Assembly (NCBI RefSeq): GCF_010915705.1
Contig: NZ_JAAIKE010000011.1
Span: 1 to 64,000 of the forward strand
DNA length: 64,000 bases
Reading direction: 5' to 3'
Origin: Pseudotabrizicola algicola
GTDB lineage: Bacteria > Pseudomonadota > Alphaproteobacteria > Rhodobacterales > Rhodobacteraceae
Positions 7,307-34,377 of the stretch are shown here, piece after piece. The first letter of the stretch is position 1; each line of letters begins with the position of its first letter. The notes under the pieces were generated by a model, which searched no databases, had not been told where the DNA came from, and saw only the letters and a list, made by a program, of their open reading frames with translations. The translations under genes were made by a program, and so were the position numbers.

Positions 7307-8338
7307 ATGTATTCCGAAACCGACGAACTGATCCGAGCACTAGCGGAGAACGCCGAAGGCGTCTGTCGCGCTTACCTTTCCGCCGGACGGCGGGAAGGGT
7401 CCTACTGGATCGTGGGCGATCTACAGAACAACCCAGGCCGATCGCTCTTCGTGCGGCTGACCGGGCCCGCGTCGGGGCCGGGCGCTGCTGGCAAGTTCAC
7501 CGACGGCGCCACGGGCGAGCATGGCGATCTCCTCGACATCATCCGCGAGAGGACCGGGATCTCGCGCTTTCCCGATCTTCTGGCTGAAGCCCGGGCGCAT
7601 CTGGGCCGTCCGCAGCCGGTCCTCCCGGATACTCCTGCGCCGAAGAAGGCCAAAGCCTCAGGTGGCACGCCAGCGGCGGTGGCGAGTTTGTTCGCAGCCT
7701 CGGTGCCGGTCGCTGGCACGCTTGCCGACACCTACCTCCGCTCCCGGGGCCTGACCCGAGGCGGCATGATGAGCGCCCTGCGCTTCCACCCGAAGTGCTG
7801 GCATCGGGATGAGGGCCAGACCCGAAGCCTGCCCAGACCGGCGTTGATCGCGGCGGTCACCGATGGGGCAGGGGCCTTGCAGGGCGTGCATCGCACCTGG
7901 CTGGCACCTGACGGACAGGGGAAGGCGGCTGTCGAGACGCAGCGGCGTGCCATGGGTCACCTCCTCGGCAATGCCGTCAAGCTGACCCCGCATGACGACA
8001 TCCTCGTGGTCGGTGAGGGCATCGAGACCATGCTGTCCCTTGTCGAGGCAATGCCGGACCTTCCCGTCTGGGCGGCGCTGTCGTCCAGTCACCTTGGGGC
8101 GGTCCTGCTGCCGGAGGGAGTGCAGCGCCTCTACATCGCTATCGACCGCGATCCGGCGGGGCAACGTGCGGCAGAGAGGTTGAACGCCAGAGCCACTGAG
8201 GTTGGGATTGCCGTTCGGGTGCTGGAACCGCAGCTTGGGGATTTCAACGATGATCTCCGGGCGAACAGCAAGGAGGCACTGCGCCAACATCTGGCAGAGC
8301 AGATCGGGCTCGAGGATCGGAAGCGCCTGTCAGGCTGA
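7307..8338 (+). CDS. Toprim domain protein, plasmid primase-like
   Basis: The 343-aa protein has a C-terminal Toprim fold: VVGEGIETMLS near residue 235 supplies the conserved Glu and IAIDRDPAGQRAA near 280 supplies the DxD metal-binding pair. The N-terminal half (YLSAGRREGSYW, KFTDGATGEHGDLLDII) resembles the DNA-binding region of plasmid and phage primase-like proteins, but no CHC2 zinc motif is visible. It probably acts on plasmid DNA together with the upstream helicase/methylase, to which it is tightly linked. Primase activity is inferred from the domain only. Confidence 0.8.
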   Translation: MYSETDELIRALAENAEGVCRAYLSAGRREGSYWIVGDLQNNPGRSLFVRLTGPASGPGAAGKFTDGATGEHGDLLDIIRERTGISRFPDLLAEARAHLGRPQPVLPDTPAPKKAKASGGTPAAVASLFAASVPVAGTLADTYLRSRGLTRGGMMSALRFHPKCWHRDEGQTRSLPRPALIAAVTDGAGALQGVHRTWLAPDGQGKAAVETQRRAMGHLLGNAVKLTPHDDILVVGEGIETMLSLVEAMPDLPVWAALSSSHLGAVLLPEGVQRLYIAIDRDPAGQRAAERLNARATEVGIAVRVLEPQLGDFNDDLRANSKEALRQHLAEQIGLEDRKRLSG

Positions 8339-8701
8339 GCAGCATCACGCCGGGGGCGGTCGGGGACAGCGGGGCAGGGGTCCTGCAGTCCTGTCGTGGC
8401 TGTGGATTGTCGCCTTTTGCCTCTTCCCGGGCAATCTCATCCACCCGGCCCCCGAGCGGCCTTCAAGAGATGGGCAGGCGGCCGTCAAAGAGGCCGCCCC
8501 TTCAAGGACGGGGAGCGACTGATTTCCGCCGGCGGCAGAGCCGCCTTTGCATCGCGAAGCAAATCAGCCGCCCCCCGTACTCCTCCACATGCGTTCCGGC
8601 CCCGAAAGGGGGTGAAGGGGCGTCCCCCGTGACGGCTTCCGCAGCCCATGAAGGCCGCGCGGGATGACGCGCGGACCAGACAGGCCCGGAGGCAAGAACC
8701 G
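8339..8701 (+). other. Non-coding spacer with GC-rich hairpins
   Basis: No gene is supported across this 363-base gap. It contains a hairpin with arms GGCGGCC (8477-8483) and GGCCGCC (8492-8498), and further GGCGGC/GCCGCC repeats near 8530-8550. A ribosome-binding site (GGAGGC) lies just before the next gene. Confidence 0.45.
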
Positions 8702-9637
8702 ATGACGATCCACACCCACGACGACGCGTATGAACCCGCCCACACCGCATCCCAGACGGCCCATGCGCTGGAGGAGCTGCAGCTCTACGGCTACCGCCCC
8801 TTCGAAGACGAGCCCGATCCCCGCCCGATGCCCGACGCAGACCGCCTCCGGGGTGCCGTCGCCGATATCTTCGACGCCCTCGTCGCGAGCCTGGCCGACA
8901 CCCGCATGGAACCCGACCTCGAAGAAGTGCTCTGGGGCCAGGTCAACCTCTTCCACCGCGCCACCGCCCGGATCGAACGGTCGCTCGACGACAATGAGCA
9001 GGCGCAGCGCCGCCTTCAGCGCGAGCAGGACGGCTCCGAGGTGAAATCCACCGAACTTGAGCGTCTGACGGCCGAGGGCCTGACCCTCACCGAACGGCGG
9101 AACTGCATGGACATGATGCGCGATCACGCCGCCTCCGAGTTCTGGCACCACACAGGCTCGACCTGGCGGCCCCGCACCGGCTCAAAGGTGAACCATCAGC
9201 ACCTGACCGCCGCCCTGATCGACAGCCGCGACTTCCTGGCCGCCAAGCGTCGTGCCGAGACCGAGGTGATGCTCCCCGCTGGTCCCAAGGTTGCCCTCAC
9301 CGGTGGGACCGACTTCAACGATCACCGCCTGATCTGGGGCAAGCTCGATCAGGTCCGGACCAAGTATCCCGACATGGTCCTTCTCCACGGTGGTGGCGTG
9401 AAGGGCGCCGAACTCATCGCCGCCAAATGGGCCGATGCCCGGGGCGTGACGCAGGTGGCCTTCAAGCCGGACTGGACCAAGCACGCCAAGGCCGCACCCT
9501 TCAAGCGCAACGACGCCATGCTGGATGTCCTGCCCGTGGGCGTCCTCGTTTTCCCGGGCAACGGCATTCAGGAGAACCTCGCTGACAAGGCCAAGAAGCT
9601 GGGCATCCCGGTCATGAGATTCGAGAAGGGGGCGTGA
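8702..9637 (+). CDS. DUF2493 (SLOG-fold, YspA/cpYpsA-like) protein
   Basis: The 311-aa protein carries a C-terminal DUF2493 domain from about residue 197: VALTGGTDFNDHRLIW, LLHGGGVKGAE and PFKRNDAMLD. This is a Rossmann-like fold of the SLOG superfamily proposed to bind nucleotides or nucleotide-derived signals. The N-terminal 190 residues are acidic and partly helical, with no recognised domain. It is a standard companion of the Toprim and helicase/methylase genes on related plasmids; its biochemical role is unknown. The ATG at 8702 is chosen because a GGAGGC site precedes it; 8648 is an in-frame alternative. Confidence 0.8.
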   Translation: MTIHTHDDAYEPAHTASQTAHALEELQLYGYRPFEDEPDPRPMPDADRLRGAVADIFDALVASLADTRMEPDLEEVLWGQVNLFHRATARIERSLDDNEQAQRRLQREQDGSEVKSTELERLTAEGLTLTERRNCMDMMRDHAASEFWHHTGSTWRPRTGSKVNHQHLTAALIDSRDFLAAKRRAETEVMLPAGPKVALTGGTDFNDHRLIWGKLDQVRTKYPDMVLLHGGGVKGAELIAAKWADARGVTQVAFKPDWTKHAKAAPFKRNDAMLDVLPVGVLVFPGNGIQENLADKAKKLGIPVMRFEKGA

Positions 9638-9648
9638 GCCCCCTTCTC
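9623..9648. terminator. Bidirectional terminator hairpin between convergent genes
   Basis: Perfect 11-base arms GAGAAGGGGGC (9623-9633) and GCCCCCTTCTC (9638-9648) enclose a 4-base loop. The TGA stop codon of the DUF2493 gene falls in that loop. The hairpin lies between the DUF2493 gene and the convergent XRE-ImmA gene and can act in both directions. Confidence 0.75.
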
Positions 9649-9660
9649 TCAGTTAGAAGA

Positions 9661-10860
9661 TCAGCGCCGGGCGAACGGTACGACTTCTCCTGCAGGAGCG
9701 TCACTATGCGGCTTCGCGGCATCCTGCTTCAACGATAGTTGGACAACGCTAGCTTCTTGCCGGTTGAACCACCCTGGTGGAAGCCCGGTCAGGTTCTCGA
9801 TGTCGCCTGGATGCATTGTGAACTCGACGGCAAGCAAATCTTCCTTGGTCCGAGTTCCGGATTCGACGATCAGGCTAAGCGCGTTGCGCAAGACCGCCGG
9901 CTCGGGAACTGGCCACTCGCGATCCAGCGGCTCCACCTTGTTCCAGCCGTTCGCTGAATAGCTCTTGTAGAGCTGCGTGCCGTAGTGCTCCGGGATGACT
10001 TCGAGGTCCAGAAGCCGCCTGATTTGCGCCTTCACTGAAACCCGCCACCGCTCTTTTACGGACAGGAGCCCTGCCAAAGAATAATGCTGCACTTCATGCA
10101 CGAAGGTCGTCTCGGGCATTAGGAATGCACTGGCAAAACGGAAAGCCTGACGTTCGATCTCTTTGAGATCGGACTTCAGCTCTTCGTGCCTAACCCCCTT
10201 GTGCAGGATCGCATGACCAAGTTCGTGTGCGGCGTCCATTTGACGACGAGGCAGGGACATCTTGTCAGTCGCGAGCATGATATGCGGGCGTTCGTCACCC
10301 AGTGACCAGCTGCATAGCCCGTCCAGCTTCGACGTTCCCATCTCGATGGAGCCAACCACACAGCCGACTCGTTCAAGCAACGCCACCATGTCGATGATCG
10401 GACCTTGGCCAAGCCGCCAATGGGATCGCAATTCCTGTGCGATGCCCTCGATGTCTTCATCACGCAGTTGGCGATAGGCTAGACCCTTCATGACATCAGG
10501 AATGTCGACCGCCGGAAAATCCACATAATGCTGCAAGACCGCAGAGATTTCCTGCAGCCACTGCATCTGGGCGTCCTGGTACGACGTGTCGCGCTTCAGG
10601 GCACTGGAGAGCGAGCGAGAAAACATCGGGTGTTCACTGGTATGGACAGGTCGCAGAAAATACTCCCTACGCACACGAAGTTCACGCGCCAGGGCGGTGA
10701 GCGCCTCTGCATCGGGAGCATGGGTGCCGCTTTCCCAGCGTGACACTGCACTGGGTGAAACCCCAATCATTTGTGCAAGCTCCTTCATGCTCAAAATTCG
10801 CCGAGCAGCCCGCACTTCCGCTAGGCGTTCTGGCACGAAGCCAGGCGTTCCTACGCGCAT
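9661..10860 (-). CDS. XRE HTH fused to an ImmA/IrrE-type metallopeptidase domain
   Basis: The 399-aa protein starts with an XRE/Cro helix-turn-helix (about residues 11-65: ERLAEVRAARRILSMKELAQ, VSPSAVSRWESG). An ImmA/IrrE-type peptidase domain follows, with the zinc motif AHELGHAILH near residue 214 and a downstream RQAFRFASAFLMP helix. Proteins of this kind sense a signal and cleave or control repressors, often in phages, mobile elements and defence operons. Here HTH and peptidase are in one chain. It lies 32 bases downstream of an unknown gene on the same strand and probably shares its promoter. Confidence 0.85.
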   Translation of the reverse strand: MRVGTPGFVPERLAEVRAARRILSMKELAQMIGVSPSAVSRWESGTHAPDAEALTALARELRVRREYFLRPVHTSEHPMFSRSLSSALKRDTSYQDAQMQWLQEISAVLQHYVDFPAVDIPDVMKGLAYRQLRDEDIEGIAQELRSHWRLGQGPIIDMVALLERVGCVVGSIEMGTSKLDGLCSWSLGDERPHIMLATDKMSLPRRQMDAAHELGHAILHKGVRHEELKSDLKEIERQAFRFASAFLMPETTFVHEVQHYSLAGLLSVKERWRVSVKAQIRRLLDLEVIPEHYGTQLYKSYSANGWNKVEPLDREWPVPEPAVLRNALSLIVESGTRTKEDLLAVEFTMHPGDIENLTGLPPGWFNRQEASVVQLSLKQDAAKPHSDAPAGEVVPFARR

Positions 10861-13164: not shown

Positions 13165-13221
13165 AATTGTCCGACGCAGTTGCGGCCGATAGATAGTAGC
13201 TATGTTTTAGCTATTCTTTAC

Positions 13222-13250
13222 TTGACAGATGAATGCGAAACAGCTAGAAA
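13222..13250 (+). promoter_or_regulatory. Promoter and possible operator of the RHH-GNAT-XRE-ImmA operon
   Basis: TTGACA (13222-13227) is followed after 17 bases by TAGAAA (13245-13250), 23 bases before the ATG at 13274. Just upstream the palindrome TAGCTA occurs twice, at 13197-13202 and 13208-13213 (11-base spacing), with AGCTAG again at 13242. This arrangement suits autoregulation by the RHH protein encoded first in the operon. Confidence 0.55.
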
Positions 13251-13273
13251 ACATGCGTTCAATGAGGATCGAC

Positions 13274-13483
13274 ATGAGCAAGAAGACCATGACGCTCAAC
13301 CTCACGGAGGCTGAGATGAGCGCCCTAGAGGCCTTGTGCGCCAAGAAGGATCTCAGCAAGACCGGCCTGATGCGGCAGGCGCTGCGACTTTACCAGATGA
13401 TCGACACCCGGGTGGAGCGTGGCGGCAAGCTATACTTCGAGGACGACCAGACCAGAGAGAAGTCGGAGATCATGATGCTATGA
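13274..13483 (+). CDS. Ribbon-helix-helix protein, possible antitoxin
   Basis: The 69-aa product (MSKKTMTLNLTEAEMSALEA...) has the MetJ/Arc ribbon-helix-helix pattern: a short strand TMTLNLTE, helix AEMSALEALCAKK and a second helix SKTGLMRQALRLYQMID. RHH proteins usually repress their own operon and many are antitoxins. The start at 13274 is preferred because GAGG sits 6 bases upstream and the promoter is 23 bases away; an upstream ATG at 13229 lies inside the promoter. The stop overlaps the start of the GNAT gene (ATGA), the classical order of antitoxin before toxin. The antitoxin role is inference. Confidence 0.65.
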   Translation: MSKKTMTLNLTEAEMSALEALCAKKDLSKTGLMRQALRLYQMIDTRVERGGKLYFEDDQTREKSEIMML

Positions 13484-14103
13484 CATCGTATTCCGTCTTT
13501 ATCATTGATGTGTCCTCACGGCAGCCAGTTGAGGCTGAATTGCTCGATACGATCGGCGAACGACAGCTGTTGGATTGGCAATTCCAGTGGCGAAGAACCC
13601 TGGAGGGCTATCTCCGGCGGCTTGCCGACAATGGGGTAACCCGGCAGGGTCTCGACTGGCCGCAGAGCTGGCATTGGGACTGGCGCGCAAAGATCGACGA
13701 AGTGCGCGGACTGCTCGGCCACACGGGTTACAGCGTCGTATGCCGGGATGTGACCCAGGGCATGATGCGGCTCGATCTGGCGAGCCGCATGGCGCGCCTC
13801 GACGATCAGATGGGCAAGCCGCTGGTTTATGTCGACTACCTCGAAATCGCTCCCTGGAACTGGAACGAACCCTATGCCGATCCACCGCTTTATCGCGGCA
13901 TTGGTCAGGTGCTAATCCGAACCGCAATCCAGAGGAGCTTCGACGAAGGCTTCCACGGTCGTGTCGGCCTTCATTCCTTGCCGCAGGCGGTCACCTTCTA
14001 CGAGCGCTGCGGCTTCATCAATCTTGGCACCAATCCGAATGAATATCGTGGGCTGCTACCCTATTTCGAGATCACGACGGAGCGAGCCAGGACGTTCTTA
14101 TGA
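13480..14103 (+). CDS. GNAT-fold acetyltransferase-like protein, possible toxin
   Basis: The 207-aa protein has a C-terminal GNAT-like core: VDYLEIAPWNW (beta4 region), YRGIGQVLIRTAIQRS (the R/Q-x-x-G-x-G/A acetyl-CoA pyrophosphate loop and helix) and SLPQAVTFYERCGF (the final beta-bulge typical of N-acetyltransferases). The N-terminal 100 residues are not recognised. It is coupled by a 4-base overlap to the RHH gene. This matches RHH-GNAT toxin-antitoxin pairs such as TacAT/AtaRT, whose toxins acetylate aminoacyl-tRNA. This protein is longer than those toxins, so a different substrate is possible. Confidence 0.65.
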   Translation: MTSYSVFIIDVSSRQPVEAELLDTIGERQLLDWQFQWRRTLEGYLRRLADNGVTRQGLDWPQSWHWDWRAKIDEVRGLLGHTGYSVVCRDVTQGMMRLDLASRMARLDDQMGKPLVYVDYLEIAPWNWNEPYADPPLYRGIGQVLIRTAIQRSFDEGFHGRVGLHSLPQAVTFYERCGFINLGTNPNEYRGLLPYFEITTERARTFL

Positions 14104-14114
14104 GGAGAAGCGCA

Positions 14115-14594
14115 ATGACCTACAGCACGACTGCTGACTGGGCCCTCGCCAGGGCGGCGCTCGATGAGACGTCGACGCCCGGCGCAGGCCCCCTTTCCGC
14201 CCGTCCCCATGTGCCGGACGAAACCTTTTGGCTCCGCGGCGAAGAAACCCGTCTGGCCTTCGCCCGCTTTGTCAACATGGCGCGTCGCCAGCGTGGCTGG
14301 TCGATCGAAAAGCTCGCCGATGACGCCCATATCGAGGTCGGCGAGCTGATGAGCATCGAGCAGGACGGCGGTCACGAGCCGGAGCTGCGCACGATCTGGC
14401 GGCTGTCCGAGGTCTTCGATGTATCGCAGGCTCGACTGATGGAGCTGGCGGGGCTGGCTTCGCCGAAGGACACACATGCCATGGAGGAAGCTGTCCGTTA
14501 TGCGGCACGGTCTACGGCCATCACAGCCCTGACAGCCGAGGAGCAGGCCGCCTTTGACGGCCTCGTTTCCGTTCTGCGCGACAAGGCGAAGTAA
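14115..14594 (+). CDS. XRE-family HTH regulator with N-terminal extension
   Basis: The 159-aa protein has an XRE/Cro helix-turn-helix at about residues 50-105 (FVNMARRQRGWSIEKLADDA, VGELMSIEQDG, LSEVFDVSQARLMELAG), preceded by an unusual 45-residue extension. It lies between the GNAT gene and an ImmA/IrrE peptidase gene. In related XRE/ImmA pairs the peptidase inactivates the XRE repressor on stress. The ATG at 14115 is chosen because GAGGAG precedes it by 7 bases; an ATG at 14100 overlaps the GNAT stop. Confidence 0.8.
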   Translation: MTYSTTADWALARAALDETSTPGAGPLSARPHVPDETFWLRGEETRLAFARFVNMARRQRGWSIEKLADDAHIEVGELMSIEQDGGHEPELRTIWRLSEVFDVSQARLMELAGLASPKDTHAMEEAVRYAARSTAITALTAEEQAAFDGLVSVLRDKAK

Positions 14595-14623
14595 CGGGCG
14601 GCCGGCGGCCTGGGGAATTGACG

Positions 14624-15559
14624 ATGGCTCGGAACTACATCCTGAGACGCAAAACACAGCAGGAAATCGACGAACGCGTCGAGCGCGTCTTGGCGCGTCT
14701 CGGGAATCCCGAACCACCGCTCGACCTCCGGGTCGTCCGCGATCTGCTGTCGCTCGATCTGACCTATTTCCGGAAAGACGATCCCTCGCTTGCTGATGAG
14801 GTTATCAGCCGCATGCGCATGGCGAGCAAGCAGATCATCCGGCGTCCTATGCTCTTCTTCGAGGCTGTCGCCAAATTCGATTTGCGGGCACTCTATCTAC
14901 CTGACAACAAGCGTATTCTGCTCGATCAGTCGCAACCCGAACTGAAGCACCGCTGGCACGAGGCGCACGAGATCGGCCACAGTATCATCCCCTGGCATGA
15001 AGGGGCTATGCTCGGCGACGATCGCTTCACCCTGAACCAGAACTGCCATGACCAAGTTGAGGCCGAAGCCAATTTCGCGGCCAGTCGACTGCTTTTCCTC
15101 CGGGACCGCTTCACCGTCGAAGCCCGCGACCACGCACCCTCCATCGAAGCCGTGCGCGCGCTCAAGCCGGTCTTTGGCAACACCTACACCACGACATTTT
15201 GGCGCTCTATTGAGACTTGGGGCGCGTCTGTACCGATTGTCGGCATGATTTCCGACCATCCGCACCCGGTGCGTCGATCGGCCGATTTCGATGCGGCCAC
15301 TCCCTGCGAACATTTGGTGCGCTCGCCGGCCTTTGCCGCCGGCTTCAGCGGGGTCGACGAAGTCGAGGTTTTCGAGCTCGTCTCCGGCTATTGCCAGCCA
15401 CGTCGGGCCGGTCCGCTCGGCGAAGCCGAAATTGTGCTCACCGACGACAATGGCGATGCCCACGTCTTCCGCTTCGAGAGTTTCAGCAACAGCTACCAGG
15501 CGCTCACTCTCGGGGTCTATCAACGTCCCCACGCGCCGTTGGTCCGTTTCGGCACCTGA
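14624..15559 (+). CDS. ImmA/IrrE-family metallopeptidase
   Basis: This 311-aa protein carries the zinc peptidase signature WHEAHEIGHSIIPWH (HEIGH at about residues 115-119) and a downstream EAEANFAASRLLF helix that supplies the third metal ligand. ImmA/IrrE peptidases cleave or displace XRE-type repressors in response to DNA damage or phage signals. It follows the XRE gene by 29 bases and is probably its partner. The C-terminal 140 residues resemble the sensor region of IrrE-like proteins only loosely. ATG 14624 is preferred over the TTG at 14618. Its last 40 bases overlap the convergent DUF6527 gene. Confidence 0.82.
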   Translation: MARNYILRRKTQQEIDERVERVLARLGNPEPPLDLRVVRDLLSLDLTYFRKDDPSLADEVISRMRMASKQIIRRPMLFFEAVAKFDLRALYLPDNKRILLDQSQPELKHRWHEAHEIGHSIIPWHEGAMLGDDRFTLNQNCHDQVEAEANFAASRLLFLRDRFTVEARDHAPSIEAVRALKPVFGNTYTTTFWRSIETWGASVPIVGMISDHPHPVRRSADFDAATPCEHLVRSPAFAAGFSGVDEVEVFELVSGYCQPRRAGPLGEAEIVLTDDNGDAHVFRFESFSNSYQALTLGVYQRPHAPLVRFGT

Positions 15560-15918
15560 CGGTGACCGCTATCGTGACACCAATGGACTTGGCCCCGCTT
15601 GACCCAGAAGTGGCAGCGGCAGGCATTGAGCTGGCGCACTGAGGGTTCGATGGTCGGCCGCAGCAGCCAGTCGAAACGCACCGCCCAACGGGGTCGCCGC
15701 GCCTGGTTCAGGGAGAGCTGAATCTTCTCGCCGCACCCTCCCGGACAGCGGAAACAGGCCCATTTATCGAGGGTGCCATCACGCACGACGACCAGTGACC
15801 CCGTCTGGAGCTGGTCCGGTGATGGATGCCGGGGGCTGACCCGCGCGACCAGATCGGTGCGACCGATCAACCGGCACCGCTCGGCAGTCCAGCGGCAAAG
15901 GTGGCTAAAGATGCGCAT
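15520..15918 (-). CDS. DUF6527 zinc-ribbon-like protein of the ubiquitin-like operon
   Basis: The 132-aa protein matches the DUF6527 pattern as I know it: GSLVVVRDG, KWACFRCPGGCGEKIQLSL, RRPRWAVRFDW, RPTIEPSVRQL and CRCHFWVKRGQVHWC. Cysteines at 55, 58 and 62 and at 100, 102 and 114, with His103, could form a zinc site. DUF6527 genes recur beside multiubiquitin/E2/ThiF-JAB genes, and their molecular role is unknown; target recognition or an E3-like function is possible. The start overlaps the E1-JAB stop (TGATG), so it is the last gene of that operon. Its 3-prime end overlaps the convergent ImmA gene by 40 bases. Confidence 0.78.
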   Translation of the reverse strand: MRIFSHLCRWTAERCRLIGRTDLVARVSPRHPSPDQLQTGSLVVVRDGTLDKWACFRCPGGCGEKIQLSLNQARRPRWAVRFDWLLRPTIEPSVRQLNACRCHFWVKRGQVHWCHDSGHRQVPKRTNGAWGR

Positions 15919-17318
15919 CAGCCGATCCGATCCATGAAGGGGTCCATGTCGCCCCGGCCCCAATAGTCCTCGCGCGCGCAAATCGGACAGTGCGGTGACC
16001 GGATAGCGCCGCGCTTCCGCTCGATGCCGCGGTCCAGCCGCCGAACACGCTCCCAGGCCCAGCCCCCTTCCCCGCGATAGTCGGTCAGGCCCTGCAGCAG
16101 CTCATTGACGGCGAGCGTCGCAGTTTCGGTCGTAAAGGTCACCACGGCCGGCGCCGGATTCTGACCGCCGCGGACATAGGCCTCGCGCTTCTGTCGCTCG
16201 TATTCTTCCGGCGCTGCCCGACGCAGCGCCTCCTCGCTCGCGGCTTTGGGGTCGACAACGCCCCGGCAGGAGAGGCAGGGTGCGCCCGGCGTAAGCACAG
16301 TGACCCGCGCCGACATGTCCCGCATGTCAGCCGACGCCGGCTCGATGGCAAGTCCCATGTCGATGACCGGGATCAGATAGAAATGCGAAAAGCGATTGAG
16401 AAACAGCCGGCCTGCATGGTCATCCGTGCAGCCGAAGATCACGTCGCAGGCCTTGAGCGCATCCCGCGCGGCTTCATTCTCGATCCAGCCGCGATGGGTG
16501 TGGACACGCACGCCGAGGCCCAATTCCGTGATCTCGCGCGCGAGCACCTCGACCTTTGGCCGCATGGCGTCGGCATCCGCCCGGCGTGCGCCATGGAGGC
16601 GATTCAGATTGGAAATTTCGACGATATCGTCGTCAAACAAGGCGAGCTGACCGACGCCGAGCCGGGCCAACAGCATCGCCGTGGCGCTGCCTGTGCCTCC
16701 GCAGCCGACGATGCCTACCCGCATCGATGCTAGACGGTTGTTAACCGCTTCGCCGAACAACAGTGCTTGCCGCACCAGTGCCGCGTTCGAGGCGCCGGAC
16801 TCGCCGCCGAAATGGAGCAGCCGGGAGCCGATGCTCCGAACGATTTCGGCCGCGACCGGTTCCTTGTCATCGAACCAGGCACGCGCCATGAAATGATCGT
16901 CGCCGGCGAGCAACACGCTCGCCATAATCGCGTCAGTACCGTTACGGTTGCGCAGCAACCGGTAGAGATCGCGCTCGTTGACGTCGTCCTGCCGCGAAAA
17001 GGCCCGCATGCCGGCAGGATGGCTGTGCACGATCGCTGGCACTAGACCCCGGTAGGCCGCCTGCCGACACAGACTGACGAAGGTTGCAGTCGACCAGGTA
17101 ACATGGCGGGGGCTCGCCGAAATCTCGTCGCCCGCCGGCACCGGAACGACTTGATGAGAAACCAGCCGAAGCCGCCGGCGACGGGACCACGGGTCAATCC
17201 CGACGACGTTGCGCCCAAACATGACATAGGCCGCGGCCTCGATCCCGTCCGGACGCTGGAGCAATTCGCGCAGCGCCGTTGCATGACGCGCCTGCAGAGT
17301 CACATCAATCTGCATCAC
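15918..17318 (-). CDS. E1-like ThiF adenylyltransferase with N-terminal JAB isopeptidase domain
   Basis: This 466-aa fusion should activate and process the ubiquitin-like protein of the operon. Residues 1-165 form a JAB/JAMM peptidase with a perfect HSHPx6SxxD motif (His98, His100, Ser108, Asp111) and Glu26 as a candidate general base; such domains trim ubiquitin-like tails or remove conjugates. From about residue 199 a ThiF/E1 domain follows: VGIVGCGGTGSATA (nucleotide binding, 201-214), FDDDIVEISNLNR (228-240) and FGCTDDHAGRLFLNR. Two CxxC pairs (Cys348/351 and Cys444/447) fit the structural zinc of ThiF-type enzymes. The E1 catalytic cysteine was not identified with certainty. It overlaps the E2 stop upstream. 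Confidence 0.9.
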   Translation of the reverse strand: MMQIDVTLQARHATALRELLQRPDGIEAAAYVMFGRNVVGIDPWSRRRRLRLVSHQVVPVPAGDEISASPRHVTWSTATFVSLCRQAAYRGLVPAIVHSHPAGMRAFSRQDDVNERDLYRLLRNRNGTDAIMASVLLAGDDHFMARAWFDDKEPVAAEIVRSIGSRLLHFGGESGASNAALVRQALLFGEAVNNRLASMRVGIVGCGGTGSATAMLLARLGVGQLALFDDDIVEISNLNRLHGARRADADAMRPKVEVLAREITELGLGVRVHTHRGWIENEAARDALKACDVIFGCTDDHAGRLFLNRFSHFYLIPVIDMGLAIEPASADMRDMSARVTVLTPGAPCLSCRGVVDPKAASEEALRRAAPEEYERQKREAYVRGGQNPAPAVVTFTTETATLAVNELLQGLTDYRGEGGWAWERVRRLDRGIERKRGAIRSPHCPICAREDYWGRGDMDPFMDRIG

Positions 17319-17695
17319 GCGGCCTCCTGCAGCGCCTGTTCGACCCGCTTGAGCATGGTCCAGATGCCGTCGATGCCCGGCCGCCAGTTATTATTATGTC
17401 GGGACCAGCGCTGCCAATTTTGACTCTCAAACTGCTGGGGCTGATCCGCGCAGTTGGGATAGCGGCTGGATCGCACGAGGCTCAGCCAGGGCAGCGCGTA
17501 GAACATGTCTGGCGCCGTGTCGGGATAGCCGCACGGAAGGAGGATCAGGATATCGGCTTCGACAACCTGAAATTTCGCCGCCGGCAGGGCGAAGCCGGGA
17601 AGGATGACGCCCTTCCGGCCGCCATCGTCCACTTCCCGGAAGGCCAGCCCCCGCTCCTCAAGATAGCGCCGGTCGGCTGTCGGGAGGAAGCTCAT
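17315..17695 (-). CDS. E2/UBC-family conjugating enzyme (bacterial)
   Basis: The 126-aa protein has a diverged E2 fold. GVILPGF and the strand VVEADILILLP lead into GYPDTAPDMF (the YPxxxPD turn of E2 enzymes). Cys82 (RYPNCAD) and then WQRWSRHNNNWRPG follow, the last resembling the W-P segment after the E2 active site. Cys82 is therefore the best candidate for the catalytic cysteine that carries the ubiquitin-like protein; Cys55 is an alternative. It overlaps the upstream ubiquitin-like gene and the downstream E1-JAB gene by 4 bases each. Assignment rests on motif and operon context. Confidence 0.85.
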   Translation of the reverse strand: MSFLPTADRRYLEERGLAFREVDDGGRKGVILPGFALPAAKFQVVEADILILLPCGYPDTAPDMFYALPWLSLVRSSRYPNCADQPQQFESQNWQRWSRHNNNWRPGIDGIWTMLKRVEQALQEAA

Positions 17696-18186
17696 GCCCC
17701 ACCCTCCGTAGTCTGGCTGATGCCCGTGAAGAAGCGTTCCAGCCCCTTGCCATCGAGCCGCACCAGCTCGGTGTCGCCGATCGGCCGATCCTCGGCGCCG
17801 CGCACTTCAAGCCAGACGCCGTAGGTCTTCGGATCGACCTTTGCGATCGTCTTCAACACCCGCCCGCTGATCGCGCAGGCACCCCATTCCAGCACCTGGC
17901 CGTCCAGTTCGATCCGAAAGGACTCGGCCCCCGGAAAGATCAGGAAGCGCTCAGCCCGACCGCCGCGCAGATCGGTCGTCTCGTCCTGGCGCAGCTCTTC
18001 GAGCTCGCCGTCCCGCAGGAGCTGGAACACCAGATGTTCCTCGGGGATGCGCACGCCGGCGGCTTCGAGGATCTGCCGGCCGGTCGGAACCGGATCGTCG
18101 ATCTGTACCGGCCGGAAATTCAGCTCGGCATCGCCCACGCTAATGTGGAAGGTACCGTTGTCGTGTCCGTTCTGCTCTGCTGCCAT
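17692..18186 (-). CDS. Multiubiquitin protein: two tandem ubiquitin-like domains
   Basis: The 164-aa protein contains two beta-grasp units, about residues 11-86 (GTFHISVGDAELNFR to ERFLIFP) and 88-164 (ESFRIELDGQVLEWG to RFFTG). The C terminus is TTEGGA: a diglycine followed by one extra residue. The JAB domain encoded downstream could remove that residue to expose the glycine for activation by E1 and transfer to E2. It is the first gene of the operon, with a strong AGGAGG site and a near-consensus promoter. This layout corresponds to the multiubiquitin/6E-type (BUB-like) bacterial conjugation operons; the targets of conjugation are unknown. Confidence 0.88.
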   Translation of the reverse strand: MAAEQNGHDNGTFHISVGDAELNFRPVQIDDPVPTGRQILEAAGVRIPEEHLVFQLLRDGELEELRQDETTDLRGGRAERFLIFPGAESFRIELDGQVLEWGACAISGRVLKTIAKVDPKTYGVWLEVRGAEDRPIGDTELVRLDGKGLERFFTGISQTTEGGA

Positions 18187-18236
18187 ATTGGCCTCCTATG
18201 CCTGTTAGGCAGTGAGGCCCTTGCCATTGGCGGCCT

Positions 18237-18299
18237 CGACATGCCATGTATGTCGGGAATATAGGGGGACGTTCGCAAGACGTCAATATCAACATGTCG
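18237..18299. promoter_or_regulatory. Operator-like inverted repeats over the ubiquitin-operon promoter
   Basis: Three sites cover the promoter in the 121-base divergent region. CGACAT/ATGTCG (18237-18242 and 18250-18255) covers the likely start site. GACGT/ACGTC (18268-18284) covers the spacer and -35 box. A further ATGTCG (18294-18299) lies upstream of the -35 box. They are natural targets for the XRE protein encoded divergently at 18308. Binding is inferred. Confidence 0.5.
18258..18286 (-). promoter_or_regulatory. Sigma-70 promoter of the ubiquitin-like operon
   Basis: On the minus strand TTGACG (18281-18286) and TATATT (18258-18263) are exactly 17 bases apart. Transcription should start near 18250 and reach the multiubiquitin ATG at 18186. 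Confidence 0.7.
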
Positions 18300-18307: not shown

Positions 18308-18670
18308 ATGACCATTGAACACGAGAAGCCATCGGATATCTTCAGGGAACGACTGCGCGCTGCGCGAGAGAGCCTGCGCCAGATGAGCCAAGCCGCCCTC
18401 GCCAAGGACAGCGGCCTGCCGCCCAGCTCCATCGCACATTTCGAGGCCGGTACCCGCAAGCCGTCATTCGATAGCCTCCGCAAACTGGCCAACGCACTCT
18501 CCGTGACCACAGATTTCCTGCTTGGGCGCACAGACAATCCCGAGGGCGCGGCCGAGGCCGATCCGCTTTACCGCGACATGCAGAAGCTCAACGACGAGAA
18601 TCGACGGCAGGCCGCCGACTTCATGCGCTTCCTAGCCGAGAAGCATGACAGGGAAGCCGGGAAGAAATGA
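18308..18670 (+). CDS. XRE-family HTH repressor divergent from the ubiquitin-like operon
   Basis: The 120-aa protein is a compact XRE/Cro regulator. The HTH spans about residues 10-68 (FRERLRAARESLRQMSQAAL, GLPPSSIAHFEAGTRKPSF, LRKLANALSVTTDFLLGR), followed by a short helical tail (NDENRRQAADFMRFLAEK) that may mediate dimerisation or peptidase contact. It starts 122 bases from the multiubiquitin gene and overlaps the following ImmA gene by 4 bases. The arrangement resembles CapH/CapP in CBASS operons, where an XRE repressor is cleaved by a partner peptidase on DNA damage. A repressor role here is inference. Confidence 0.85.
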   Translation: MTIEHEKPSDIFRERLRAARESLRQMSQAALAKDSGLPPSSIAHFEAGTRKPSFDSLRKLANALSVTTDFLLGRTDNPEGAAEADPLYRDMQKLNDENRRQAADFMRFLAEKHDREAGKK

Positions 18671-19566
18671 CCGGCAACCCCGATCTGAAACAAAAGCAGC
18701 TTATGCGCCGAGCCGAACTCGTGCTCCAGGAACACGGACTGTTGACGCTTCCGGTCGATCTGGACGCTTTGGCTCAGGCTGTCGGCATCCATCTGCGTGA
18801 AATGGACCGCAGGGCCGAGGGTGTCTCGGGCATGCTGATGCGCTACGGCGATCAGTTCGGCATCATGTACGCCACCCACACCGACAACGAGGGCTTCGAG
18901 CGGTTCAGCATCGGCCATGAATTCGGGCACTATTTTGTCGATGGGCATCTCGACCATATCCCCTTCGACCGCGGAGTGCATCGTTCAAGGGCCGGGTTCG
19001 TCTCGGAGGAACCCTACGAACGGGAGGCAGACTATTTTTCGGCAGGCCTTCTGATGCCGACCTCGCTAATTCGCCCGATCTTGAGACGGGCGCGAGAAGG
19101 GTTGCCGAGTGTGGAGGCAATCCGCAGCGAGGCAAAAGCCTCGCTCACGGCATCTGCCATCCGGTACATTAACGAGACCGACGATGCCGCCGCCATCGTC
19201 GTCAGCCGTCAGGGCCGGGTTGACTACTGCTTCAAATCCGAGGCCTTGAAGCAGCTGAAGGGCCAGAACTGGCTCCGCAAGGGCGCAGCTCTGCCGACGG
19301 GCACGCTCACCGCATCGGTCGCCGCACGGCCAGCCGCCGAACGGCAAGGCCGCCGCGAAGAAATCGAGACCGATATTCTCGACTGGTTCGGTGGGGATCG
19401 CACCGTGCGCACGGTCGAACAAGTCGTCGATCTCGGCCGCTACGACCGCGTGTTGACCGTTCTTTCCTGTGCGCAGATCGTCGACGACACCTACGAGGAT
19501 GCCGACGAATTTGAAGAGTCCGACGAAGGCATGGAGGCGCGCTGGACGCCACGCTTTCGTCGATGA
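18667..19566 (+). CDS. ImmA/IrrE (CapP-like) metallopeptidase
   Basis: The 299-aa protein has the zinc motif IGHEFGHYFVDGH (His84, Glu85, His88) and EREADYFSAGLLMP, with Glu120 as third ligand. Peptidases of this family pair with XRE repressors and cleave them after activation, in CapP by single-stranded DNA. It is coupled by a 4-base overlap to the XRE gene before it and to the cysteine-rich gene after it. The C-terminal half (ASAIRYINETDDAAAIVVSR, then a strand-rich part) may be the signal-binding region. Its likely role is to switch on the ubiquitin-like operon. Confidence 0.87.
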   Translation: MTGNPDLKQKQLMRRAELVLQEHGLLTLPVDLDALAQAVGIHLREMDRRAEGVSGMLMRYGDQFGIMYATHTDNEGFERFSIGHEFGHYFVDGHLDHIPFDRGVHRSRAGFVSEEPYEREADYFSAGLLMPTSLIRPILRRAREGLPSVEAIRSEAKASLTASAIRYINETDDAAAIVVSRQGRVDYCFKSEALKQLKGQNWLRKGAALPTGTLTASVAARPAAERQGRREEIETDILDWFGGDRTVRTVEQVVDLGRYDRVLTVLSCAQIVDDTYEDADEFEESDEGMEARWTPRFRR

Positions 19567-20261: not shown

Positions 20262-21323
20262 TTATCGGAGTGAGTACCAGGCCCCCCTCCCGGCACCGTT
20301 CAGGCTGAGGTGGCCATCCGCGACAAGTGTGCGGAAGTGCTGCTTCAGCGTGTTGCGATTCTGGCCGGTCAGGCGCTCGGCGTCGCCGATTGTTAGGCGA
20401 CCATGATCGCGCACGAGGTCGAGAAGTTTCGCAGAAACTTCCGGAAGGCTGCCCATCAGCAGCCGCTCACGCTCAACTTTCGAGCGCAATCGAAGCATTT
20501 GGCGCTGCAGTGCGGACAAGAAGAAGCCGAGCCAGGGTCCCCAGTCCGGAGTGTCGGACCTGATCGTCCCCTGGGTCTGCCGCAGTGCCAGGTAATAGGC
20601 CTCTTTGCTTTGCTCGATCACGCTTTCGAGGGATGAGTATGGGACATAGGCATAGCCTGAGCGCAAAAGCAGCAAGGTGGTCAGGATCCGGCTGAGACGC
20701 CCGTTGCCGTCCTGGAACGGATGGATTTCGAGAAAGACCACGACGAAGATTCCGATCAGTAGCAGCGGATGCAGATCATGGTCCTGGGTGGCGGCGTTGT
20801 ACCAGTCGATCAGTTCAGCAATGCGGCCCGGCGTGTCAAAGGGGCTGGCGGTCTCAAACACCACGCCAAGCTGCTGCCCTGCCTCGTCGAAAGCTGCGAT
20901 CGAGTTTGGCGCGGTCTTCCAGGCCCCCCTGTGTCGCTGGTCTTTGCTGCTGTACCGCAGGAGGTCCCGGTGCAACTGGCGGATATGGTTCTCGGTCACA
21001 TCGATGTCGCGCCACGAAGCGAAGACTGTGTCCATGACCTGAGCGTAGCCAGCGACCTCCTCTTCGTCCCGGGTCGAGAAGGTCTGGATGTCGAGATTGG
21101 AGAGCAGACGCTGAACCTCCTGATCGGAGAGCCGGCTTCCCTCGATGCGTGTCGAAGAGCCGATGCTCTCGATGGTGGCGACACGGCGTAAGGCGGACAG
21201 ACGCTCGGGGGCGAGACTTCCGAGTGCGCGCCATGCGCCTTTGAACTCGTCGATCTCGGCGATGATCGAGAGAAAGGTCGGAGTGATGCGGAGCGTATGG
21301 GTCTGGATCATATCCAATCTCAT
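20262..21323 (-). CDS. Fic-family protein (AMPylator-like)
   Basis: The protein (about 353 aa) carries the full Fic motif HPFQDGNGRLSR, whose His starts transfer of a nucleotide monophosphate, usually AMP, to a target hydroxyl. Near the N terminus SSTRIEG fits the class II inhibitory helix motif (S/T)xxxE(G/N), so the enzyme is probably auto-inhibited. A Fic_N region precedes the core, and a C-terminal winged-helix-like segment (LTIGDAERLTGQNRNTLKQH) suggests DNA binding and autoregulation. The start is uncertain: ATG 21323 is used, ATG 21311 is also possible, and both sit in an array of ACCCAAT repeats. Confidence 0.9.
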   Translation of the reverse strand: MRLDMIQTHTLRITPTFLSIIAEIDEFKGAWRALGSLAPERLSALRRVATIESIGSSTRIEGSRLSDQEVQRLLSNLDIQTFSTRDEEEVAGYAQVMDTVFASWRDIDVTENHIRQLHRDLLRYSSKDQRHRGAWKTAPNSIAAFDEAGQQLGVVFETASPFDTPGRIAELIDWYNAATQDHDLHPLLLIGIFVVVFLEIHPFQDGNGRLSRILTTLLLLRSGYAYVPYSSLESVIEQSKEAYYLALRQTQGTIRSDTPDWGPWLGFFLSALQRQMLRLRSKVERERLLMGSLPEVSAKLLDLVRDHGRLTIGDAERLTGQNRNTLKQHFRTLVADGHLSLNGAGRGAWYSLR

Positions 21324-21376
21324 ACCCAATAACACCCATTTTCTGCAACCCAATTCGGAACCCAATTACACCCATT
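21312..21376. repeat. Array of ACCCA(A/T)T repeats at the fic start
   Basis: ACCCAAT occurs at 21324, 21348 and 21360, and ACCCATT at 21334 and 21370. ATCCAAT lies at 21312. Two 17-base blocks (21324-21340 and 21360-21376) differ at one position and start 36 bases apart. Spacings of 10, 12 and 24 bases suggest a phased protein-binding array, probably the operator of fic. Confidence 0.55.
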
Positions 21377-25864: not shown

Positions 25865-26428
25865 ATGCCACGCTCACGCCTGACCTCTACTGAGACTGCA
25901 GCCATCACGGCGCGGCTCCTCGCTGGCGAGAGCGTCGCGGCCGTGGCGAGGTCGATGGGCCGTTCCCGCCAGGCGCTGTCACGGATCAAGGGCAGCCTTG
26001 ACCGGAAGGAGGTGCGGCGGCTTTCGGTGAAGCTGAACATCCGCATCACGGAAGACGAGCATGCAGCCTTTCAGGCGGTTGCCGAGGCAAGCGGTCTGAC
26101 GGTTTCCGAGGCAGTCAGGCATCTGGTCAGACAGGCAAGCGATCGTCTGGCGATCCAGGCAGACGAGCTGGATGCCATCGCTTCGGCCAGGCGGGAGCTG
26201 TCGGCCGTCGGCAACAACCTCAACCAGATTGCCCGACTGGGGGCGGTCGGGCGTCTGACCTGGAATGCCCGTGATGCTGCCCTGGTGCGCAAGGTTGGAG
26301 CGCGGGTCGATGACCTTGTTGAAGAAGTCGTCCACCTTCTCTCGGCGCTTCGGGCCAAGCAGGGACTTGGTGATCAAACCTCTCCTTTCGTTGTAGCGAC
26401 TGATCCCTCTGCCGAGGCATCGAAATGA
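25865..26428 (+). CDS. mobC: MobC-like relaxosome protein with N-terminal HTH
   Basis: The 187-aa protein starts with a helix-turn-helix-like segment (TETAAITARLLAGESVAAVA, MGRSRQALSRIKG). It then carries the MobC/RHH region: KLNIRITEDEHAAFQAVAEA, GLTVSEAVRHLVR and the conserved AVGNNLNQIARLGAVG. MobC proteins bind oriT and help the relaxase melt and nick the strand. It is translated just upstream of the relaxase with a 4-base overlap, the usual order. Confidence 0.85.
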   Translation: MPRSRLTSTETAAITARLLAGESVAAVARSMGRSRQALSRIKGSLDRKEVRRLSVKLNIRITEDEHAAFQAVAEASGLTVSEAVRHLVRQASDRLAIQADELDAIASARRELSAVGNNLNQIARLGAVGRLTWNARDAALVRKVGARVDDLVEEVVHLLSALRAKQGLGDQTSPFVVATDPSAEASK

Positions 26429-28302
26429 ACCGGTCTCCTTCCGTCGAGGATCTGGTTCTCGGTCATGTTCTCGACGACCTGCGTCGTGGGCGAGGAAGCG
26501 GCGAGGGTGCCGCGTCCCGTCTCGGCACGCGCAAAGAACGTCAGACCCGGGCGCTTCTGCGAAACGCTGGTGGACCACGCGGCTGGCAGTCGGTCGTCAA
26601 ACGCATCGCTGGTGGGAGTGCTCGCACCCCGCAGGAGCTGAAGCGCCTTCTCAACTATGTGGCCCGGGAAGAGGGGGTGCAAAGCACCTGGTGCAATCTG
26701 GCGGGCTATGAACGCGACTTTGACCCTGCCCGAACGGAGCGGACAGCAGATCTCTGGTCTTCGACCTGGACAGGCGCGCCGCGACGGGGACATGCCGATC
26801 ACATCGTCCTGAGCTTCCCGCGTGGGGTGGACGCCGAGCGCGCCGAGGTGATCGCCCGGGAATGGGGGCAAGCGGTGTTCGGGTCCGGTGAATGTGGGGA
26901 TGTCTGGCGCTACGTCGCGGCCCTTCACAAGGACACCGACCACTTGCACGCACATTTCGTGGTCGACAAGCATGGCATCGAGGAAGGCCGGTTCCTATCG
27001 ATCTGTCGGCATGCCGCACTGAACTTCGATGTGATGCGAGAGCTTCACGCCGAAATCAGTCAGTCGCATGGGCTGAACATCCTCGCCTCTTCGCGCCTTT
27101 CCCGCGGCATCATCGAGAACCCGCCGCGCCAGTCCGAGCTACGCGCATCGCGAGACGGTGGGAAGTCCACGCCCCCTCCCCCGCCGCCGCTGTCCGACGG
27201 GGAGCGGAGCCGACGGCTTGCCACATTGCAGGGCTTCGCCCGCGAATACGAGACCCTTGGCGACCTCGCCGACCTTGCCGCCGCAACCGGCACCGAGGCG
27301 AGTGCCGCTTCCTACCTTTCCCGGCTGGCCCGGGCGCTTGGCGCGTCCGCCGCCGCACTCAGACAAGGAGTTCCTTTCATGCCCGACCACTCGCTTCATG
27401 CCGAAGGCGATCCCGCCGCGCGGGTTGAGGCTGCGCGCAACGAGATGATCGCTTCGGCCACTGAGGCTTGGGAGGCAATTCGCGCCATGGAACCTTCAGC
27501 TGAGCGGGTCGATCTTGAACGGAGCTTTGCCGAACAGGCGCGCGCCTCGATGAAACTCGCGCCAGACAGCATCCTCCTGGCAGAGCATGCCCAAATTGCC
27601 GACCAGAACATCGATCCCTACCACAACCCGACCCTCGCCTCGCTTGCACGACTGGAGCATGGCCAGACCGAGGGGGTTTCCCTCGATGAGGGCCTGCGCG
27701 CAACCCTTGCACATGTTCGCGACGAGATCGGCGAACGGCTGACGGCGCTGTTCTCGATCCGGGAAGACGAGCTTCGCATAGCAGGCACGTCCGTCGAGGA
27801 AATGGTCGCCCGCTTCAGTTTGGCCGAGCGTAGCGAAGGCCAGCGGGCGAGCTGGATCACGGAGCAGCCGAACACGATGCAAAAGGTGTTCTGGATGGAA
27901 ACGGAGCGCGCCCTCGGCCAGGAGGTTCGGGCAGAAGTCGCCGCTTTCAACTTTGCGCCGGAGTTGACGGAGGCCATTGCGCGCGACCAGTTGCTCACCG
28001 TCGATCGCCATATGAAACTCTCTGATGTGCCCGCGCTGGAAGCCATCGTCGACCGCCTGCACGACACCCTGAAACCCGAAGATCTCGACCGCGTCCGGTC
28101 CGGCGATCTCGCCCCGCTCAACGAGCAGGTCCGAGATCCGGCACTCAGGGCGGCCGTTGCGCATGAACTGAAAAATGAGGGCGACCTTGGCGCGACGAGC
28201 GAGGTTGGACCCTGGGCAGACCTGGCACGTGCACAGAATCGCGCCGCCGAGCTGGGGCAGCGCGACCGCGCCGTCGAACGCGACACCGGGCACGAACTCT
28301 GA
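26425..28302 (+). CDS. VirD2/MobA-type relaxase (MOBP-like)
   Basis: The 625-aa protein nicks oriT and stays covalently attached to the 5-prime end of the transferred strand. Motif III is clear: HKDTDHLHAHFVV near residues 168-180 supplies the metal-binding histidines. A candidate catalytic tyrosine is Tyr78 in LLNYVAREEG (motif I). The first 230 residues form the relaxase domain, followed by a long helical region without recognised motifs that may carry the secretion signal. No helicase or primase domain is visible. It lies between mobC and virD4. Confidence 0.88.
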   Translation: MNRSPSVEDLVLGHVLDDLRRGRGSGEGAASRLGTRKERQTRALLRNAGGPRGWQSVVKRIAGGSARTPQELKRLLNYVAREEGVQSTWCNLAGYERDFDPARTERTADLWSSTWTGAPRRGHADHIVLSFPRGVDAERAEVIAREWGQAVFGSGECGDVWRYVAALHKDTDHLHAHFVVDKHGIEEGRFLSICRHAALNFDVMRELHAEISQSHGLNILASSRLSRGIIENPPRQSELRASRDGGKSTPPPPPPLSDGERSRRLATLQGFAREYETLGDLADLAAATGTEASAASYLSRLARALGASAAALRQGVPFMPDHSLHAEGDPAARVEAARNEMIASATEAWEAIRAMEPSAERVDLERSFAEQARASMKLAPDSILLAEHAQIADQNIDPYHNPTLASLARLEHGQTEGVSLDEGLRATLAHVRDEIGERLTALFSIREDELRIAGTSVEEMVARFSLAERSEGQRASWITEQPNTMQKVFWMETERALGQEVRAEVAAFNFAPELTEAIARDQLLTVDRHMKLSDVPALEAIVDRLHDTLKPEDLDRVRSGDLAPLNEQVRDPALRAAVAHELKNEGDLGATSEVGPWADLARAQNRAAELGQRDRAVERDTGHEL

Positions 28303-34170: not shown

Positions 34171-34377
34171 TCAGTTCGCGCAAGTCGTGTCGGGTGCGTT
34201 CATCGTCGAGACGACGACCGTCGTGCCGTCACTTTGCTCGTGCGCTGCGAAGTATTTGCCCTCGGCCCGGAACTGACCGTGGCAGGGGGAGACGGCCCCC
34301 GTCTCGACACCGGCGCAGGCGGAGAGGAGGGTGAGCCCGACAAGGGAAGCGGGGATCAAGCGGTTGCGTCTGGTCAC
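34171..34377 (-). CDS. Small lipoprotein, VirB7-like position
   Basis: The 68-aa protein has a lipoprotein signal with lipobox LLSAC and a short mature part with two further cysteines (SPCHGQF, DTTCAN). It overlaps the virB4 stop by 4 bases and precedes the transglycosylase gene by 8 bases. VirB7 is a small outer-membrane lipoprotein of the T4SS core; this protein is a candidate by size and lipidation, although the position after virB4 is not classical. Confidence 0.7.

Follow-up and report, generated by a model that had tools for sequence, protein, structure and literature searches.

The window analysed here, a stretch of 64,000 nucleotides from Pseudotabrizicola algicola (contig NZ_JAAIKE010000011.1), carries on its minus strand, at positions 15520–18186, four overlapping genes that an initial annotation had read as a ubiquitin-like conjugation operon of the 6E or Bub type. 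This reading holds: the four frames are intact, they overlap by 1 to 4 bases, and all four products match Pfam families above the curated cut-offs. The first gene (17692–18186, minus strand) encodes a BubA-like ubiquitin-like protein (UBL) of 164 amino acids with two Multi_ubiq domains (PF14452, E value 2.5e-35) and the tail QTTEGGA; its nearest sequences in the PDB are multi-ubiquitin proteins, namely 9d5b (5.4e-28) and 8u38, the Ubl-BilA of Methylobacterium brachiatum (7.8e-28), in agreement with the two-domain beta-grasp protein ending in TTEGGA that had been described. On the same strand follow a BubB-like E2-fold protein of 126 amino acids with an invariant WSRH motif (17315–17695; PF14462, 2.1e-49), a BubCD-like JAB-E1 fusion of 466 amino acids with a GTG start (15918–17318; ThiF, 8.1e-41; Prok-JAB, 5.6e-8) and, as the Cys/His protein that the annotation had placed fourth, a DUF6527 protein of 132 amino acids with an ATG start (15520–15918; PF20137, 3.3e-25). 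By this gene content the locus is a Bub operon of the row 6e type, a kind already known: the row 6e entry of Iyer et al. (2006, PMC1779556) lists a poly-UBL, an E2/RWD-like protein termed inactive for want of a cysteine, a JAB-E1 fusion and a metal-binding protein, from Proteobacteria, Actinobacteria and Cyanobacteria. The UBL gene stands first in the window as in that arrangement, its solved relatives include Citrobacter BubCD and BubB, and 544 Bub operons are counted in PMC13373217.

To place the operon among its relatives, we searched genome contigs with a profile built from the E2 alignment, which gave 206 confirmed stretches, and kept the closest 80 (E2 identity of at least 56%). The UBL, the E2-fold protein and the JAB-E1 fusion all match in 80 of 80 loci, and all four proteins in 76; among the four loci lacking a DUF6527 match, the contig breaks off within the E1 gene or close to it in three (L039, L075 and L102); the fourth is L064. 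This four-protein association is far beyond chance. The hosts include Alpha-, Beta- and Gammaproteobacteria, Cyanobacteria and one bin labelled Acidobacteria, and the E1 tree intermixes some host groups, as expected of mobile genes. One Rhodobacterales bin (L028) is identical to the window across the compared proteins. In a Jiella plasmid and in Consotaella, each protein of the locus shares roughly 88–97% identity with its counterpart in the window. In the Jiella pelagia plasmid (L011, 10173–10666) the annotation splits the UBL into two overlapping genes that lie in different frames, which points to either a frameshift or a sequencing error, and in L023 (genome G044; 9048–9248 and 7857–8984) a stop codon splits the JAB-E1 frame.

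The tails of the UBLs bear on how the protein is matured. Of 53 unfused UBL rows, 26 stop exactly at TTEG, 14 end in TTEGGAA and four in TTEGGA; the other nine comprise TTEGAA (two rows), TTEGVA, TTEGDTV, TTEGGAQ, TTEGGVV, TTEGNHGSPSHS, L070, whose stop directly follows TTEG and brings the exact count to 27 of 53 when it is included, and L017, whose UBL is of a different type. Most unfused tails that do not end at TTEG carry two to three further residues, and some relatives have Ala, Val, Asp or Asn where the second Gly would stand. Another 32 rows have an in-frame UBL-E2 fusion, with TTEG, STEG or TTAG at the joint in 29; the three fusions without such a joint (L018, L019 and L026) are of a more distant kind. 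These tail counts and fusion joints therefore indicate that the conserved end of the UBL has a single Gly and that the GA of the window is an extension. The initial annotation had the JAB domain trim the final Ala to bare a Gly-Gly end; processing of the tail by the JAB domain remains plausible, while the Gly-Gly mature end is rejected in favour of TTEG.

The JAB-E1 protein is closest in the PDB to Citrobacter BubCD (9ea4, 1.1e-38, over residues 15–412), and all five residues of the perfect JAMM motif that had been claimed for it are present (E27, H98, H100, S108 and D111, numbered from the GTG). Across the alignment the motif is complete in 80 of 86 rows. When L070 is placed in the exact group, and L039 (E1 cut by a contig end) and L017 (not a JAB protein) are excluded, it is complete in all 24 rows with extended tails and all 32 with fusions (0/56 incomplete), and incomplete in four of the 26 readable exact-TTEG rows: three Sphingomonas-type loci (L078, L080 and L098), in which all five residues are changed and the UBL already ends at TTEG, and L042, in which only E27 is. 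Fisher's test gives p = 0.0085 for this pattern (0.029 without L042), or 0.007 and 0.026 when L070 is counted as extended, all four values ignoring kinship. Since the JAMM motif is incomplete only in rows whose UBL has no residue beyond TTEG, it is plausible that the JAB domain cuts behind TTEG to mature the UBL, and the pattern fits a JAB activity that is dispensable when no cut is needed. Because most exact-tail loci nevertheless retain the motif (22 of 26), the domain probably has a further task, such as deconjugation. Within the E1 part, C297 is conserved in 83 of 85 rows and is the sole Cys beyond the two CxxC pairs to pass 93%; we take its position to be that of the common CTDN motif of ThiF/MoeB proteins. 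Tyr381 is nearly invariant (81/83), and in alignments the PDB chain 9eav differs from 9ea4 by Phe in place of the matching Tyr and by Ala in place of the JAMM Asp.

For the 126-residue protein, structure prediction supports the E2 fold that had been proposed. Its best match among PDB sequences is Citrobacter BubB (1.2e-11), and its AlphaFold model (mean predicted local distance difference test score, pLDDT, 91.8; predicted template modelling score, pTM, 0.86) retrieves BubB (9eae_C, 5.7e-9, TM score 0.91) as the sole Foldseek match at E values up to 0.001, the weaker matches being mostly eukaryotic E2s. The candidate catalytic Cys82, on the other hand, fails on conservation: of the 86 E2s aligned, 42 have Cys at this position, 34 have Ala and 10 have other residues, and we reject a thioester through this residue. 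By contrast, none of the 86 departs from W97, S98, R99 and H100, and Citrobacter BubB keeps WSRH and has no Cys in the aligned stretch. In a hand alignment on the eukaryotic YP...W-x-P frame, the catalytic Cys would fall within QRWSRH, and Cys82 at the HPN motif. The protein thus appears to have an E2/RWD fold without the canonical catalytic Cys, the canonical place being that of the hand alignment, and the reactive site is probably the invariant WSRH motif. A mechanistic Bub paper of 2026 by Ye and colleagues reportedly proposes a route without a cysteine thioester. No E2 of this type was confirmed in viral contigs.

The DUF6527 protein carries C58-x3-C62, C100-x2-H103 and C114, which is the C-x3-C and His/Cys pattern of the metal-binding fourth protein of Bub operons. 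It had been called the newest part of the system; Iyer et al. (2006, PMC1779556) had already given row 6e a fourth, metal-binding protein, for which they proposed a role in target recognition. All 50 aligned rows keep D83, P92, S93, H103 and G109, and C62 and C100 are lost together in four of them, the same four rows in both cases. The AlphaFold model (mean pLDDT 89.6, pTM 0.80) shows one helix followed mainly by beta strands. Foldseek returned no solved structure at E values up to 0.001 (best E 1.3), the family profile found nothing among PDB sequences at E values up to 10, and the sequence itself matched two SoxA chains only (E 0.9–1.2). We therefore reject a RING or other known E3 fold, for which neither sequence nor Foldseek offers a convincing solved relative; an E3-like role is neither supported nor contradicted by the missing fold relative. 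A phage origin of the gene is likewise rejected: tblastn gave no match in 50,697 phage records, though two PHROGs match weakly. Among viral models, the best match reaches E 0.011 at probability 1.00. A stand-alone DUF6527 protein in L022 (7768–8325), which matches phrog_15183 at 2e-32, probably lies in a prophage and is a possible phage relative of a Bub component. No paper on DUF6527 was found in the open literature searched.

Two observations speak to the function of DUF6527. One concerns a clade of five loci (L048, L063, L065, L070 and L073) whose UBL has a single domain (83–92 amino acids): these five are the four loci with rows lacking C62/C100, plus L065. Among the 70 long-UBL loci with an aligned DUF6527, both cysteines are present in 68 (the frame of L043 is disturbed), and the remaining two, L036 and L040, have disturbed or misaligned rows. 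The pattern would suggest that the metal site is kept together with the second UBL domain; however, the single-domain clade is one group in the E1 tree (support 100/99) and hence a single event, and Fisher values ignore kinship, so this is a lead rather than statistics. The other observation concerns the contexts of DUF6527, of which 23 were examined. Nine hold a UBL with a DUF6791-type ThiF protein (L017, L021, L127–L131, L135 and L136), none of them with an E2 match and, in the two proteins checked with Pfam (L017 and L021), without a JAB domain; five are of the JAB-E1 type (L132–L134, L137 and L139); and nine show no UBL, E1 or E2 match (L022, L024, L138 and L140–L145), mostly around weak DUF6527 matches. 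Because it is found with two types of E1 and varies with the UBL, DUF6527 more probably reads the UBL or the target than serves a single enzyme as its partner, and recognition of either is its most likely role.

Turning to the flanks, the region drawn by the initial annotation omitted control genes that border the operon on both sides. Divergent from the UBL gene lies a CapH-like helix-turn-helix (HTH) repressor (18308–18670, plus strand; PADLOC capH, 3.9e-26 for the longest open reading frame, which begins at 18212, the start given here being taken from the annotation of a 120-amino acid Jiella gene), followed by a CapP-like ImmA/IrrE metallopeptidase with an HEFGH motif (18667–19566, plus strand; PADLOC capP, 2.5e-61; Pfam Peptidase_M78). 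A repressor and a peptidase thus stand beside the predicted promoter of the operon. The gap between CapH and the UBL holds an imperfect inverted repeat and a promoter-like TTGACG-17-TATATT on the minus strand (18258–18286; consensus scan, 10 of 12 matches), although two such sites were found in the region against 1.1 expected, which alone is no evidence of function. According to the counts in PMC13373217, 219 of the 544 Bub operons adjoin CapW or CapH plus CapP, and work cited there has CapP cleaving CapH upon binding single-stranded DNA. Upstream in our 80 loci we found CapH plus CapP in eight, including the four with a downstream cassette (below), and a CapP-like gene alone in 19; tblastn adds a CapH in L032 and L034, which changes these counts to 10 and 17.

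On the DUF6527 side, a plus-strand cassette of four genes runs towards the operon: a CopG-like ribbon-helix-helix (RHH) protein (13229–13483; RHH_1, 0.00028; a 210-base Jiella gene suggests a start at about 13274), an acetyltransferase-like protein of 207 amino acids of the GNAT type (13480–14103; Acetyltransf_10, 3e-5), an HTH regulator (14100–14594; HTH_3, 4.9e-5), the Pfam matches of these three being just over the cut-off, and a second ImmA/IrrE metallopeptidase with an HEIGH motif (14618–15559; Peptidase_M78, 1.8e-7; weak capP match, 2.9e-12), whose end overlaps that of DUF6527 by 40 bases. The Bub operon of the window is thereby bracketed by the cassette and by CapH/CapP, and the cassette has no promoter in common with the operon. 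The same downstream arrangement is found in four of the 80 loci (L028, identical to the window, L029, L030 and L031), while in 15 of 80, from Rhodobacterales, sphingomonads, rhizobia, Pseudomonas and others, the complete cassette stands upstream, divergent from the UBL gene; one further locus (L040) has a partial cassette there. A third gene of this kind in the window (9661–10860, minus strand) joins HTH and ImmA/IrrE parts in one fused protein (HTH_3, Peptidase_M78).

Beyond these loci, tblastn with the GNAT protein returned 51 plasmid records, 17 of which were inspected (H2, H3, H4, H6, H7, H9–H15, H21, H33 and the cyanobacterial H16, H24 and H28). All four cassette genes are present in 14 of 14 proteobacterial records (in H2 by annotation; in H33 with a short ImmA/IrrE of about 238 codons), and the three cyanobacterial records have a GNAT match with the rest of the cassette absent. 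The neighbours are JAB-E1 Bub operons in eight records (H2, H6 and H10–H15), a UBL with DUF6791-type ThiF and DUF6527 in pCAR3 (H7), a UBL-like frame in the unannotated H21, and operons of the cyclic oligonucleotide-based antiphage signalling system (CBASS; cyclase, AAA ATPase and SAVED) in three, from Nitrobacter (H3), Methylocystis (H4) and Methylobacterium (H9); in H33 an MvaI/BcnI restriction endonuclease lies near the cassette, not divergent from it. Matches to the GNAT protein occur in six of 398 sampled genomes of the phylum, the genome of the window included, and three of them are weak; in G717 the cassette adjoins a UBL-DUF6791 operon, and around the GNAT match of G764 neither the cassette nor a UBL was matched.

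Ahead of the RHH genes, the gaps contain TAGCTA half-sites 11 bases apart. In the window, the operator-like TAGCTA-N5-TAGCTA (13197–13213, plus strand) is the single match and occurs in none of 100 shuffles. With up to one mismatch, 28 of the 33 loci with RHH and GNAT, several of them near-copies of one another, have the site close to the start of the RHH gene; the misses are L030 and L031 (two mismatches), L046, L047 and L050. It is present in 12 of the 15 upstream cassettes and beside CBASS operons (L152, L153 and L156) as well as Bub. The loci that do not belong to the RHH set (1,279,352 bases) yield three matches, all in overlapping pieces of cassette loci (L016, L146 and L147), and the CapH-UBL gap of the window has no such site. 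A longer operator pattern was found in none of 385 genomes of the class, missing even the genome of the window, whose site is without the TCAATAG part, and thus led to no further systems. The site may be bound by the RHH or the HTH protein. Cassette and TAGCTA sites were also noted in L152, L153, L154, L155, L156, L157–L160, L162–L165 and L128. In L164 (Rhizobium CIAT894), the cassette and Bub operon lie between an anti-phage dCTP deaminase and a second dcd gene (9195–10820 and 1958–2575), in what looks like a defence island. We found no description of the cassette in the open papers searched, and the main text of PMC13373217 contains neither "GNAT" nor "acetyltransferase"; it is apparently a further control module that the literature searched does not describe.

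The wider window holds a MobA/VirD2-like relaxase (26425–28302, plus strand) and a VirB4-like ATPase (34374–36815, minus strand), because of which the contig looks like a conjugative element. A Fic/DOC family protein is encoded near the CapP side (20262–21365, minus strand).

Taken together, we consider it likely that the window carries, on a conjugative element, a Bub operon controlled by CapH/CapP, in which a UBL trimmed to TTEG is transferred without an E2 cysteine and behind which an extra cassette lies. CapH would keep the UBL-E2-E1/JAB-DUF6527 operon off; by analogy with CapH/CapP elsewhere, DNA damage, for example through phage infection, would yield single-stranded DNA that activates CapP, and CapH would be cut. 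The JAB domain would then cleave the UBL behind TTEG, the E1 domain would adenylate the terminal Gly, as its ThiF domain and BubCD relatives suggest, and the UBL would pass via the E2-fold protein, probably at WSRH. The JAB domain may also strip the UBL from its targets, DUF6527 most likely recognises UBL or target, and the cassette behind the operon would add a second layer of control; both the conjugation chemistry and the anti-phage role are our inference. Several points weigh against this scheme. No control gene of those tested stands upstream in 37 of 80 loci, in some for lack of sequence. The WSRH motif could be structural, its proposed role being an argument from hand alignment and conservation. 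Loss of JAMM amounts to only two changes in the tree, and the loci are the closest 80 of 206, a part rather than the whole of the family. Finally, phage protection by Bub operons is, as PMC13373217 puts it, not demonstrated.

This last point would favour a scheme in which the UBL is a free or polymeric signal or scaffold, with E1, E2 and JAB merely activating it or attaching it to itself, and no role in defence. Filament-forming bacterial UBLs are said to serve as signal or scaffold, and the nearest solved relatives of the UBL are multi-ubiquitin proteins, one of them named Ubl-BilA. However, UBL, E2 and JAB-E1 match together in every locus, JAMM is complete in nearly all rows, and control modules are common to Bub and CBASS, and we judge this scheme distinctly improbable. 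A classical cascade, with a thioester on Cys82, a Gly-Gly end after removal of one Ala and DUF6527 as a new, E3-like part, is what the window in isolation suggests: Cys82 exists, the UBL ends in GGA, and DUF6527 adjoins the E1. The column counts for Cys82, the replacement of the second Gly in some relatives, the tails that stop at TTEG and the 2006 description of the fourth protein leave it with very little credibility. Alternatively, DUF6527 might be a second processing or deconjugating enzyme that uses D83, S93 and H103. These residues never vary, whereas C62 and C100 are jointly lost in four rows, and DUF6527 accompanies the UBL-DUF6791 operons without Prok-E2_E and, where checked, without JAB. 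Yet the invariant residues may be structural, the absence of a solved fold relative leaves no enzyme family to name, and JAMM is lost only where the UBL needs no trimming; we think this role unlikely.

For the cassette, the question is whether it controls its neighbours or only travels with them. RHH and GNAT pairs are typical toxin-antitoxin pairs, and the cassette, which resembles them, might be a passenger module of this sort that moves with immune islands and has no part in control. The missing common promoter in the window, the plasmid with the cassette near a restriction gene but not divergent from it, and the three cyanobacterial GNAT relatives that stand alone would all agree with a passenger. 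Against this, 15 of 80 loci and 11 plasmids have the cassette divergent from the opening gene of a UBL or CBASS operon, and the gap between the two holds the TAGCTA site in 12 of the 15 loci and in 11 of 11 plasmids; we doubt the passenger explanation while granting it a real chance. It is tempting to go further and to propose that the cassette is an unrecognised mobile control module of immune operons (Bub, UBL-DUF6791 and CBASS, and near one restriction gene) that recognises, in the shared promoter, TAGCTA half-sites with a spacing of 11 bases, and that DUF6527 is a UBL-reading domain of a new fold, the latter because the sole single-domain-UBL clade (five of five loci) has also lost the C62/C100 site. 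We give this joint proposal about an even chance. If true, a single stress sensor would govern quite different defences, based on conjugation and on nucleotide signalling.

Bub operons are a bacterial counterpart of ubiquitin tagging, and their chemistry appears to bypass the E2 cysteine. The present family offers natural systems that combine a dead JAB domain with a ready-made UBL tail, in which maturation is separated from conjugation, as well as a fourth protein that is rarely lost and lacks a solved fold relative, and a cassette shared with CBASS that could reveal which stress switches these operons on. The cassette and the DUF6527 fold are the parts that a specialist might not expect.

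Compared with known systems, the window agrees with Bub/row 6e in its UBL, its E2-fold protein without a conserved catalytic Cys, its JAB-E1 fusion, its Cys/His fourth protein and the adjoining CapH/CapP, which part of that family also has; it differs in that its UBL is unfused, with two domains and a two-residue extension, and in the extra RHH-GNAT-HTH-ImmA/IrrE cassette behind the operon. In finer detail, the JAB-E1 protein keeps C348/C351/C444/C447, whereas L018, L020 and Citrobacter BubCD are without the first pair, and the last two ligands of DUF6527 stand in another order than in the C-x3-C-x(35-38)-H-x2-C signature given by Iyer et al. (2006, PMC1779556). The operons of bacterial ISG15-like (Bil) systems share UBL, E1, E2 and JAB with the window, 8u38 being among the nearest solved relatives of its UBL. 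Their JAB and E1 are separate genes and their E2 has a catalytic Cys; in the window, a single protein comprises JAB and E1, the E2 is a Prok-E2_E protein with WSRH and no conserved Cys, and DUF6527 is present. Type II CBASS, with Cap2 and Cap3, has comparable E1/E2/JAB chemistry and can adjoin the same cassette, but its Cap2 is an E2-E1 fusion, the PADLOC E1-E2 models cover only the ThiF part of the operon, and no CD-NTase or cyclase occurs among the flanking genes scanned (Pfam; PADLOC on eight proteins). Finally, the nine UBL-DUF6791 operons share the UBL and DUF6527 with the window, and in L128 and pCAR3 the cassette as well; they differ from it by the lack of a Prok-E2_E match (9/9) and by DUF6791 in the place of JAB ahead of ThiF in the two proteins scanned with Pfam.

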